From the NCBI RefSeq assembly GCF_002278075.1, contig NZ_CP022989.1:496001-560000 (forward strand): a stretch of DNA of 64,000 bases. Reading direction: 5' to 3'. This DNA comes from Paraburkholderia aromaticivorans (GTDB lineage: Bacteria; Pseudomonadota; Gammaproteobacteria; Burkholderiales; Burkholderiaceae). Below, one piece after another: positions 27,350 to 33,371 of the stretch. Numbering within the stretch: position 1 is the stretch's first letter; every line of letters begins with the position of its first letter. The position numbers and the translations under genes were made by a program. The notes beneath the pieces are model-generated. The model saw only the letters and a program-made list of their open reading frames with translations, searched no databases and was not told where the DNA came from.

Positions 27350-28561
27350 ATGTCCACCGACTCAGCGACACCTCGCAGCGAATTTGCGACGACCATGCAG
27401 ATCATTCCGGTCGTCTTTTTCACGTTTCTTTGCTATCTGACGATCGGAATTCCGCTTGCGGTGTTGCCGGGCTACGTCCACGACGACCTCGGTTACAGCG
27501 CCGTGCTGGCTGGTGCCGCCATCAGCGTGCAGTATCTGGCGACGCTGGCGTCGCGGCCGCTGGCTGGCCGTTCCGCGGACACGTTGGGGCCGAAGCGGAC
27601 GGTGACGATTGGTTTGATGGGTTGTGGCGCGAGCGGAGTTCTGTTGTTGCTGGCTGTGCTGTGCGGGCGCTGGCCCGTGCTGAGCCTGGGGCTGCTGGTC
27701 TGCAGCCGGCTCGTGTTGGGATTCGGCGAGAGCCTGTGTGGCACGGGCGCGATTCTGTGGGGCATCGGCCGGGTGGGCACGAGCAACAATGCGCGGGTGA
27801 TCTCGTGGAACGGTATCGCGACGTATGGTGCGCTGGCGATCGGCGCGCCGCTGGGCGTGGCGATCGAACACACGGTCGGATTTGCCGCGTTGGGAATTCT
27901 GGTGATTCTGCTGGCGGCGCTCGGGTTTTATCTCGCCCGTCCGATCGCGCCGGTGCCGATCGTGCATGGCGAGCGGATGTCATACCGCAGTGTGTTTACT
28001 CGCGTGCTGCCGCATGGGATTGGGTTGGCGCTCGGGTCGGTCGGGTTTGGGTCGATCGCGACTTTCATTACGCTGTTTTATGCGGCGAAGCATTGGCCGA
28101 ATGCGGCGCTCTCGTTGACGGTGTTCGGGACGCTGTTTATCGGGGCGCGGTTGCTGTTTGCCAATACGATCAAGACTTATGGCGGGTTTCGGGTCGCGAT
28201 TGCTTCGTTTTCGTTTGAATGCGCCGGGTTGTTGATGTTGTGGCTTGCGCCTGAGCCTCATGTTGCGCTTGCTGGCGCGGCTTTGACTGGGTTTGGGTTT
28301 GCTTTGGTGTTTCCGGCTCTTGGGGTCGAGGCGGTTGGGCTTGTGCCGCCGGCTAGTCGTGGGGCGGCTTTGTCGGCTTATTCGGTGTTTCTCGATCTCT
28401 CGCTCGGGATTACTGGGCCGTTGGCCGGGTATATCGCTGGTGAGTTTGGGTATGGGTCGGTGTTTCTTTTTGCGGCGGTTGCCGCTGCTGCGGGTGTTGG
28501 GCTGTCTACTCTTCTTTATCTTCGGAATGCTAAGGTCACTAATTTGCCTGCGGCGCTTTGA
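27350..28561 (+). CDS. MFS transporter (YhhS/YfcJ-like), 3' end with anomalous codon use
   Basis: Seen: 403 residues with twelve hydrophobic helices. The loop 2-3 motif is SRPLAGRSADTLGPKRT, which resembles the YhhS/YfcJ drug-efflux branch of the major facilitator superfamily. Substrate unknown. Odd feature: codon use changes along the gene. The first two thirds use the ordinary GC-ending codons, but from about 28000 on nearly all third positions become G or T; 38 of the last 40 sense codons end in G or T. The protein remains a good MFS sequence, so the shift is synonymous. A repeat element starts 49 bases after the stop. The start has no clear ribosome site. Confidence 0.85.
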   Translation: MSTDSATPRSEFATTMQIIPVVFFTFLCYLTIGIPLAVLPGYVHDDLGYSAVLAGAAISVQYLATLASRPLAGRSADTLGPKRTVTIGLMGCGASGVLLLLAVLCGRWPVLSLGLLVCSRLVLGFGESLCGTGAILWGIGRVGTSNNARVISWNGIATYGALAIGAPLGVAIEHTVGFAALGILVILLAALGFYLARPIAPVPIVHGERMSYRSVFTRVLPHGIGLALGSVGFGSIATFITLFYAAKHWPNAALSLTVFGTLFIGARLLFANTIKTYGGFRVAIASFSFECAGLLMLWLAPEPHVALAGAALTGFGFALVFPALGVEAVGLVPPASRGAALSAYSVFLDLSLGITGPLAGYIAGEFGYGSVFLFAAVAAAAGVGLSTLLYLRNAKVTNLPAAL

Positions 28562-28609
28562 GGTTTTTTTGGTGCTTGGTGTTTAGGCTTTTTGTGATCT
28601 TCGGGGGTT

Positions 28610-28838
28610 GGCCTTTCCTTGCTTTGTTAGTGGTCTATTGGCGTTGCCCCTGTGCGGGGCGGCACCTACTTTCTTTGCCGCGGCAAAGAAAGTAGGCAAA
28701 GAAAGCCGCTTTGAACCGCTAGCTCATAAGCGGGTCCCTCGCACAGCCGCGGTAGTGGTCCATCTGGAATCGGGGTTCTCGCGCATTCCGCCTCAGTGAC
28801 AAGGCCGTCATACCTCCCGCCTCGCGCTCCGCGCTCGT
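28610..28838. repeat. 229-bp repeat element, copy 1, with 32-bp perfect palindrome
   Basis: An inverted, almost identical copy exists at 30403-30531 plus 31912-32010, split by an IS element. Positions 28665-28696 are a perfect palindrome, CCTACTTTCTTTGCCG followed by its exact reverse complement. The element starts just after the MFS stop. Short frames through it can be translated (a PTFFAAAKKVG peptide), and such peptides are, from memory, often annotated as hypothetical proteins in Paraburkholderia genomes, so this is probably a dispersed family; copy number here cannot be known. It encodes no credible protein. Confidence 0.9.
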
Positions 28839-28885
28839 CGGAACGGTCGGCTTCCGGCGCCTGGCCCTTGGCCCTTGGCCCTGGC

Positions 28886-31903: not shown

Positions 31904-32010
31904 GTTCAAAGCGGCTTTCTTTGCCTACTTTCTTTGCCGCGGCAAAGAAAGTAGGTGCCGCCCCGCACAGGGGCAACGCTAATAGACCACTAAGAAAGCA
32001 AGGAAAGGCC
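31904..32010. repeat. 229-bp repeat element, copy 2, right part, including palindrome
   Basis: Starts with the duplicated target GTTCAAAG and continues as reverse complement of copy 1 up to the GGCC edge at 32010. It contains the same 32-bp perfect palindrome at 31924-31955. It ends about 50 bases before the stop of the aminotransferase gene, mirroring the position of copy 1 after the MFS stop. Confidence 0.92.
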
Positions 32011-32063
32011 AAAACCCCAAAACCACCCAAGCAAACCACCAAGCCGAGCAGGCAAACAAACCT

Positions 32064-33371
32064 TCACCTCCCCCCCGACAACCCTCTCTCCAAAGCCGCA
32101 ACCCCCGCCGGCAAATCCACCTTAACCCCGAGATCAACCATAGTCCGCCCGAGCGCATGCACAGTACGAAAAAGATTATGTTCCCGACACTGCTCCCCCA
32201 TCTGCCCGACGCGAACAATCGGCAACCCAAACGACCCCGAAATCTCCACCTGATGCATCCGCGAGATATGCGCACAAACATCCGCAGGACTGAGCCCATC
32301 AGGCACCTCAATCCCGACAACAGAATTCAACCGACAAGCCTGCGGCGCATACAACCGCAACCCCATCGCCACCACCCCATCCTGCAACGCCAGCGAACAC
32401 CTCAAATGCCGGGCAAAGCGCTTCTCGAGCGTCTCGGCACACACCAGCCGCAAAGCCTCATGCAAAGCCAGAACCCCAGAAACAGGCGCCGTATAGTGAT
32501 ACCCCGCGTTATGCCAAAAATTCTCAGCAAGCCTCGCATCCAGACACCAATGAGCGTTCGGCGCCGTGCGCCCCTTTACCCTCTCCCACGCCGCATCTGA
32601 AAACGCAATCAACGACACGCCCGGAATCGACGACAACCCCTTCTGCCCACCCGTAATCACCGCATCGATCCCCCAGGCATCCATCTCCAACGGCATCGTG
32701 CTCAACGTGCAAACCGCATCGACGATCACCAGCGCGCCGGCCGCTTTCGCCAAAGCGGCAATCTCCTTCAGCCGATAATTCCACACCGTATTGGACGTCT
32801 CGCCCTGCACCACCGTCACGATCTCCGGACGCTCACGCCGGATCGCCTCGGCAATCTCTTCGAGGCTCGCCACAGAGCGGTCGGCGACATCGAGCGTGCT
32901 GACCCGCGCACCCACGCGCCGGCCCATTTCCGCCATCCGTTCGCTGAAGAAACCGTTCTTGATGGACAGCACACGCGTGCCATCCCACGCAAGGTTCGAG
33001 ATCGCCATTTCCATCGCGGCCGAGCCAGGTCCGGCCACACCCAGCACCCATTTCGAGTTCGTCTGGAACACGTAGCGCGCCATCGACTTCACCTGGCCGA
33101 TCACCTTCACCATCGTTTCGCCCAGGTGATTGATCACGATCGCGTTGGCCTTGGCCACCGCCGCGGGAATCGGCACGGGGCCGGCGCCCATCATCAGGAG
33201 CGGCTCTTCGGGAAGAATGGCGTCGAGCGACTCGACAACCGGACAGGGCACTGCGGAAAATGCGGATGTGATGGATGAAGTCGGCATGATGATCGGTACG
33301 TGAATGTCAGAACGCAAAGGAGCAAACGGCCCCGCCAGCGTTGACGCTGGCGAGGCCGCGTGTTCGATCAT
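32064..33371 (-). CDS. Class V PLP aminotransferase (alanine/serine-glyoxylate type), 3' end with anomalous codon use
   Basis: Seen: 435 residues (407 if the ATG at 33287 is used). PLP lysine in VITGGQKGLSSIPGVSLIAF, cofactor Asp in LVIVDAVCTLSTMPLEMD, GxGP-like start LLMMGAGPVPIPAAV and AGPGSAAMEMAISNL match the alanine-glyoxylate/serine-glyoxylate aminotransferase family. Exact donor and acceptor are not determined. It is the last gene of an operon with aspartate decarboxylase and AspT antiporters; making pyruvate from alanine would fit. Oddity: codons near the 3' end end almost only in G or T (36 of the last 40), unlike the 5' half, a mirror of the MFS gene across the island. Confidence 0.85.
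   Translation of the reverse strand: MIEHAASPASTLAGPFAPLRSDIHVPIIMPTSSITSAFSAVPCPVVESLDAILPEEPLLMMGAGPVPIPAAVAKANAIVINHLGETMVKVIGQVKSMARYVFQTNSKWVLGVAGPGSAAMEMAISNLAWDGTRVLSIKNGFFSERMAEMGRRVGARVSTLDVADRSVASLEEIAEAIRRERPEIVTVVQGETSNTVWNYRLKEIAALAKAAGALVIVDAVCTLSTMPLEMDAWGIDAVITGGQKGLSSIPGVSLIAFSDAAWERVKGRTAPNAHWCLDARLAENFWHNAGYHYTAPVSGVLALHEALRLVCAETLEKRFARHLRCSLALQDGVVAMGLRLYAPQACRLNSVVGIEVPDGLSPADVCAHISRMHQVEISGSFGLPIVRVGQMGEQCREHNLFRTVHALGRTMVDLGVKVDLPAGVAALERGLSGGR

Follow-up and report, generated by a model that had tools for sequence, protein, structure and literature searches.

A strand-coordinated composition gradient beside the outer ends of an interspersed palindromic repeat in Paraburkholderia

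Among the closest described systems are the fragile motifs of yeast, in which inverted repeats raise the mutation of a reporter gene up to 8 kb away on both sides (Saini et al. 2013, PMC3681665). According to that study, the effect occurs mostly with defective replication, with a perfect palindrome acting also without such a defect; single-stranded DNA and faulty repair synthesis are proposed as the cause, sister invasion is proposed as the repair route, and Pol zeta and Sae2 are needed. Here we analysed a 64,000-nucleotide stretch of Paraburkholderia aromaticivorans DNA (contig NZ_CP022989.1, positions 496,001 to 560,000, hereafter the window), in which an interspersed element with palindromic outer ends forms an island between two convergent genes, encoding an MFS transporter and a class-V aminotransferase, and both genes drift toward codons ending in G or T as they approach it. 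As in the yeast motifs, inverted repeats or palindromes are involved, both flanks are affected, and the effect falls with distance, although it is composition that is recorded here, not mutations. The bacterial case differs in being a fixed evolutionary record with a scale of approximately 370 bp and strand-coordinated transitions, and any breaks are hypothetical.

In mitochondrial DNA, A-to-G changes accumulate in proportion to single-stranded exposure. C-to-T is the main class of change when yeast single-stranded DNA is under stress and, likewise, when mitochondrial DNA ages (PMC6527239, a study that does not trace its oxidative class to deamination). The island flanks share the C-to-T excess, which is ascribed in mitochondria to the strand that is single-stranded during replication (PMC6527239); there the mode of replication is responsible, whereas here the bias lies beside an interspersed repeat and fork direction has no detectable effect. 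The flanks also resemble leading/lagging-strand and transcription asymmetries in their strand-asymmetric G/T excess, and differ in that the bias follows the element only.

In sequence class, the element resembles the repetitive extragenic palindromic (REP) sequences and bacterial interspersed mosaic elements (BIMEs), which have short extragenic palindromic ends, inverted pairs and a GTAG-like head and serve as targets of insertion sequences (IS) (PMC1525189, PMC2817692, PMC12306157). It differs from REP/BIME units with their REP-associated tyrosine transposases (RAYTs) in that no repeat-flanked rayt-like gene was found among 13 loci and in that the GTAG head varies. The BIMEs of E. coli showed no gradient (mean A+C of 0.487, from 10 sides only). 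Burkholderia goes unmentioned in the main text of three REP/RAYT papers (PMC3733652, PMC12306157 and PMC2817692), and among the titles and abstract openings of the open-licence literature we did not find a composition gradient described beside a bacterial repeat.

Composition of the flanks in the window and beyond

An earlier note, made from the letters of the window alone, had claimed a mirror-image excess of C-to-T and A-to-G changes on the coding strands of the two genes, mostly synonymous and rising toward the palindromic element. As an excess on the strand that leads to the element, largely at third codon positions, this is supported, and our recount returned the note's figures exactly: 38 of the last 40 sense codons of the MFS gene and 36 of the last 40 codons of the aminotransferase gene end in G or T, and 14/40 codons end in C or A in the MFS stretch that starts at 27839. 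Over longer segments, G/T endings rise from 157/240 in the first 240 codons to 144/163 in the last 163 codons of the MFS gene (Fisher p 1e-7), and from 150/240 in the first 240 to 175/195 in the last 195 codons of the aminotransferase gene (Fisher p 3e-11). The best 100-codon stretch reaches 92% G/T in each of the two genes and at most 67% in 34 other gene-like open reading frames (ORFs) of at least 200 aa picked within the window. As had been claimed, the bias continues through the non-coding DNA as far as each repeat half, and the window skew table shows both GC skew and AT skew flipping sign across the island as mirror images. The coordinates given for the drift were right, apart from the left skew, which begins earlier, near 27600.

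The observation proved to be general as well as exact. Two search patterns found eight islands in the genome of the window, and 13/13 of their outer ends are skewed, with A+C of 0.577–0.697 on the outward strand, defined as the one with its 5' end at the element. The note had proposed that other repeat copies be surveyed for the same drift, and their flanks are skewed too. In pooled profiles from three genomes (G000, G005 and G010, with 11, 32 and 51 flanks), outward-strand A+C over the 100 bp next to the core is 0.761, 0.761 and 0.694, and it is 0.504–0.506 at 1.5–2 kb. Taken singly, 91/94 flanks (11, 32 and 49 from these genomes and 2 from G001) exceed 0.53 over 60–660 bp, against a background of 600-bp windows with a mean of 0.50 and an SD of 0.03. 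This set omits flanks that run off the locus or have another copy within 1 kb; a copy with a deletion in its core (L018) and one further G000 copy lie outside it and were measured separately. The flanks not exceeding 0.53 belong to L055, L058 and L087, and the tail of L055 is broken by unrelated sequence, probably an IS. Among the 80 matching loci listed on Paraburkholderia, Caballeronia and Burkholderia contigs, A+C exceeds 0.53 in 127/135 flanks and falls below 0.5 in 3, and in a fifth genome (G063) 35/35 flanks exceed 0.53, with the loci of 30 of its 35 copies examined; duplicate flanks were removed by an exact key in both sets.

An exponential fit to 91 flanks gave an amplitude of 0.239 and a length of 370 ± 25 bp, with the excess gone by approximately 2 kb; by component, the decay length is 296 for A/(A+G) and 546 for C/(C+T). 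Purine content is nearly constant (0.51 near vs 0.50 far), and the changes are therefore mainly transitions: G becomes A and T becomes C on the outward strand, which corresponds to C-to-T and A-to-G on the inward one. In a sample of 979,446 bases, 41/42 strong GT-to-AC switches are no more than 1.5 kb from the element, and nine switches have the opposite sign; the share of 41/42 overstates specificity, as the sample is centred on the element.

Dependence on the element, gene direction and fork direction

Comparison of orthologues with and without the element, a check that the earlier note had called for, revealed less bias where the element is absent in all three genes compared (aminotransferase, MFS and LysR-type). 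At fourfold sites in the last 50 codons of 30 aminotransferase orthologues, T is 0.30 and C 0.07 in the 7 with an outer end 79–102 bp from the stop, T is 0.13 and C 0.34 in the 21 counted as lacking the element (these include G120, which has a diverged copy, and G099 keeps a remnant tail), and T is 0.09 and C 0.42 in the 2 with an outer end pointing the other way. Pairwise comparison of 6 of the 7 element-bearing sequences with 12 of the 21 others, at third positions of the last 300 bases, gave 14.4 C-to-T vs 1.5 T-to-C and 4.9 A-to-G vs 1.4 G-to-A changes per pair; polarised triplet counts in this gene were too few and of mixed sign. Two close relatives with no outer end on the aminotransferase side, G099 and G119, show an intermediate bias, which may be the fading record of a lost outer end. 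The effect is weaker in the last 50 codons of the MFS orthologues (0.86 in 12 with the element vs 0.72 in 18 without).

The LysR-type gene reads away from its island and carries the complementary bias at its 5' end: the share of A/C-ending codons among the first 40 is 0.71 in 25 genes with the element, 0.72 in 5 more with it, and 0.49 in 15 without, which include G051 and G076 (both look intermediate, and G076 lies near a contig end). The same holds more widely, as flank bias does not differ between genes reading toward and away from the element (Mann-Whitney p 0.57, 0.63 and 0.26 in three genomes); of the 23 away-reading genes, 20 were sent to Pfam and 20/20 matched a family. The earlier note had tied the drift to gene 3' ends, a link that is not borne out, since the 5' parts of away-reading genes are equally biased, and we reject a 3'-end effect. 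Its suggestion of R-loops, like transcription in general, is not supported in view of the same genes, and its suggestion of gene conversion from the repeat finds no support, as different copies are flanked by different genes. Replication direction is likewise rejected as the cause: with fork direction taken from local GC skew in two genomes, ends that face the fork are not significantly different from those that trail it (p 0.51, and 0.14 in G010). L055 was omitted from the gene-direction and fork-direction tests.

The bias instead follows the outer end of the element. In 40 paired islands the left ends have a mean of 0.605 and the right ends a mean of 0.607, and outer ends average 0.594 in one-ended islands (35) and 0.588 in two-ended islands (168), whereas sides without an outer end average 0.518, with 6/17 above 0.53. 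In two one-ended islands of the window's genome (L018 and L379), the skew lies solely at the outer end. The bias is thus oriented by the element, and gene 3' ends, transcription and fork direction are disfavoured as its source.

Possible origins of the gradient

We tentatively favour, at slightly less than even confidence, a mechanism in which strand loss begins at the element and moves outward, leaving the inward strand single-stranded where its C and A deaminate. The island would act as a fixed start for strand removal from its outer ends. After a break, nick or daughter-strand gap at the element, the strand with its 5' end there would be lost in the 5'-to-3' direction, and the other strand, running 5'-to-3' toward the element, would be left single-stranded for a few hundred bases per event. 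In this exposed strand C (to T) and, less so, A (to G) would deaminate faster, and resynthesis of the lost strand would fix the changes; repeated over evolutionary time, such events would leave each island flanked on both sides by an exponential gradient of transitions that are coordinated by strand. An outward process that exposes the strand ending 3' at the element would account for the polarity, the spectrum, the decay and the lack of a detectable dependence on transcription and replication, and resection running 5'-to-3' away from the element would spare the strand that is affected. There is no need to invoke recent transposition, because the element copies are old (those compared at the aminotransferase site differ by at least 10% between species). 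The favoured mechanism has a counterpart in the yeast fragile motifs. Exposure of single-stranded DNA, one of the options in the earlier note, remains the best of them, short of proof.

Several results weigh against outward strand loss. Forward-only acceleration would, by our own estimate, raise divergence approximately 1.7-fold, and synonymous divergence near the element shows no consistent rise across the three genes, in what are small samples. Near/far transition ratios at fourfold sites with the element are 0.96 and 0.93 (aminotransferase) and 1.07 and 1.54 (MFS), and those in four groups without it are 1.23, 1.32, 1.11 and 0.94, again from small samples. In the LysR gene, third-position transitions with the element are 0.128 near vs 0.187 far, and without it 0.195 near vs 0.182 far. 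One-ended islands are skewed on one side, though a palindrome break should mark both; this could partly reflect history, as deletion of an outer end takes the old flank too. The C-to-T changes show only a mild 5'-T preference, confounded by codons. SbcD, the classical palindrome nuclease, scored above cut-off in only 2/16 genomes (SbcC was not searched for), so that most of them either lack this nuclease or have it in an unrecognised form, and the 370-bp scale seems short for RecBCD.

RecB itself is present in 141/141 genomes searched, two of them with partial matches (near 650 bits). By TIGR00609 the genus contains two RecB lineages (approximately 990–1056 vs 790–880 bits), and 4/141 genomes carry both. 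The element (up to 3 mismatches) occurs in 25/49 genomes with one type only vs 74/88 with the other only, a comparison in which phylogeny is uncontrolled. RecB lineage was rejected as a cause: G063, with its 35/35 skewed flanks, carries the first of these types. As a separate observation, transversions outnumber transitions at the fourfold sites of the aminotransferase and MFS genes in 30/36 group-by-segment cells.

The absence of a consistent divergence rise, set against the estimate of approximately 1.7-fold, keeps biased fixation or repair as a serious rival, although on balance we consider it unlikely. Here strand-asymmetric mismatch resolution or selected composition would let T and G prevail on the inward strand with an unraised mutation rate, and it is favoured by the LysR transitions, which are fewer near the element than far from it but not so in element-free genomes. 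It would require conversion to disfavour C as well as A, and to do so on a single strand, a bias of which we know no example, and the MFS group with 1.54-fold more transitions near its element is at odds with it.

A nuclease that nicks the outer hairpin, as has been proposed for the RAYTs, could leave a 3' end from which the outward strand is primed and replaced repeatedly, with errors. By eye the outer end resembles a REP, the bias is tied to that end, and RAYT-primed strand replacement with excess mutation has been proposed for rayt genes (PMC2817692). We nevertheless regard this as improbable: the Y1-type matches are weak and occur also in 8 genomes without an element copy, and the 13 Y1 loci checked have no element within 1.5 kb. 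The errors would also need A.C mispairs, and G.T mispairs are commoner.

Replication trouble at the hairpins, with stalled forks or lagging-strand gaps exposing the template beside the island, is a still more doubtful source. Long inverted repeats generally impede replication, and gaps widened 5'-to-3' would expose the correct strand; against this, ends that face the fork and those that trail it show no significant difference in two genomes. Transcription is very improbable. Genes running into a terminator-like island might expose the non-template strand through R-loops or paused RNA polymerase, the affected strand is indeed the non-template strand for inward transcription, and a terminator-like hairpin was seen by eye at 4/11 island-free sites. 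Outward transcription, however, predicts the opposite strand, and the bias is equal beside outward-transcribed genes (the 23 away flanks and the LysR 5' ends). That the element landed in DNA already biased, by insertion preference or with imported flanks, is hardly credible even though the copies seem from ORF calls to be mostly intergenic, given that the same three genes are less biased where it is absent and that the gradient crosses gene borders in both gene directions.

It is possible, though we hold the view with some reserve, that such repeats add a third cause of strand asymmetry to replication and transcription in bacterial chromosomes, one in which the outer end directs polar rewriting of its neighbours over approximately 1 kb by a mechanism new to bacteria. 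If so, many natural sites would preserve how far, and on which strand, bacterial DNA has been repeatedly processed, and the islands could be used to gauge the length of resection tracts or gaps. Housekeeping genes would then be among the rewritten neighbours, as the affected 5' ends include genes with Pfam domains of valyl-tRNA synthetase, UvrD helicase, YebC and acetyl-CoA synthetase. Near repeats, the bias distorts gene trees and dN/dS as well as codon usage, and the islands offer a defined locus for asking what becomes of long inverted repeats where SbcD is mostly unrecognised.

Island architecture and the element in the genus

Each outer half of the island has a 32-bp perfect palindrome and an outer core (GCAAAGAAAGTAGGTGCCGCCCCGCACAGGGGCAACGC), after which comes a short conserved tail (Table 1). 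The Mutator-type transposase that lies in the window's island has a likeness elsewhere, in that the L015 island holds an ORF of the same length with the same first 45 residues. Three further features lie inside the window's island: a match to the C4 antisense RNA (Rfam RF01695) at 29443–29539 on the minus strand, with 52.7 bits against a cut-off of 45, from a family known from P1/P4-type phages; a degenerate tandem repeat at 29952–30360, with units of approximately 121 nt in two to four copies by segment; and an orphan ORF of 150 aa at 28942–29394 on the minus strand with no Pfam or PHROG match.

Table 1. Features of the island and its flanks, in window positions
Feature	Position	Strand	Description
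MFS transporter gene (PF07690)	27350..28561	+	G/T (C-to-T, A-to-G) gradient over final ~1 kb
Left skewed flank	27600..28607	+	G+T of 0.59-0.75 in 100-bp steps on the strand that leads to the element
Left outer half of island	28594..28716	-	Arm of inverted repeat I2, 94% complementary to 31904-32026
Left core	28641-28678	-	Outer end faces left
32-bp perfect palindrome, copy 1	28665..28696		CCTACTTTCTTTGCCGCGGCAAAGAAAGTAGG
Inner part of left half	28709..28846	+	Inverted repeat I1, 91% complementary to 30394-30531
Inner part of right half	30394..30531	-	Cut off from its own outer end by the transposase-bearing insert
Mutator-type transposase (PF00872 Transposase_mut)	30582..31856	+	Belongs to an insertion by which the island's right half was split
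Right outer half of island	31904..32026	+	Core at 31942-31979 and palindrome copy at 31924-31955, with the outer end to the right
Right skewed flank	32027..33100	-	Plus-strand A+C 0.56-0.81 per 100 bp, equal to G+T on the strand running toward the element
Class-V aminotransferase gene (PF00266)	32064..33371	-	Gradient in 3' half

Searching 144 genomes of the same genus with up to 3 mismatches found the core in 106, with 1,792 copies in total and a maximum of 274 per genome; among the matches listed, the named contigs carrying it belong to Paraburkholderia, Caballeronia and Burkholderia sp. Copies are seemingly mostly intergenic, as judged by ORF calls. They show the REP/BIME-like trait of inverted pairs with a variable interior: in compact pairs the cores lie approximately 410–660 bp apart, and other islands are split by inserts. 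The same insert, starting at the palindrome centre, occurs in seven G005 loci (L051, L056, L058, L060, L061, L065 and L068) and looks like an IS, and REP palindromes are known IS targets (PMC1525189).

The outer end is REP-like in look, with GTAG or GTAA followed by an imperfect hairpin read by eye, and the heads before GTGCCGCCCC-GCACA-GGGGCAACGC vary (GTAG, GTAA, GTGA, GAAG and GGAA). Y1 matches were found in 16/16 genomes, the best scoring only 24–29 bits in 13/16; the 8 genomes with weak matches and no element lack any core copy at up to 3 mismatches. The 13 Y1 loci checked, one each from 13 genomes including all 8 with the element, never have a core within 1.5 kb of the Y1 gene, so that no rayt gene flanked by inverted copies was found there, and the element was rejected as a RAYT unit on these grounds. 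Outer core and tail together resemble the Rfam family RF02421 (Bp1_684), with scores of 32.2, 30.9, 30.3 and 22.7 bits (E 1.7e-4 to 0.024) under the gathering cut-off of 44. Bp1_684 is listed as a small RNA validated by reverse transcription PCR (PMC3521395); the sequence here differs in being the end of an interspersed repeat and in its score below that cut-off.

The island upstream of the LysR-type gene is retained in 25/26 correctly anchored orthologues (L327–L356), which suggests great age or function. At the island-free aminotransferase-MFS intergenic sites, the terminator-like hairpin seen by eye is bidirectional (for example TTTTTTGCCTGCGC..GCGCAGGCAAAAAA) and occurs in G039, G104 and G037, with a similar one in G062. 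Several island flanks keep terminator-like arms, also read by eye, as though the islands sat within terminator hairpins.

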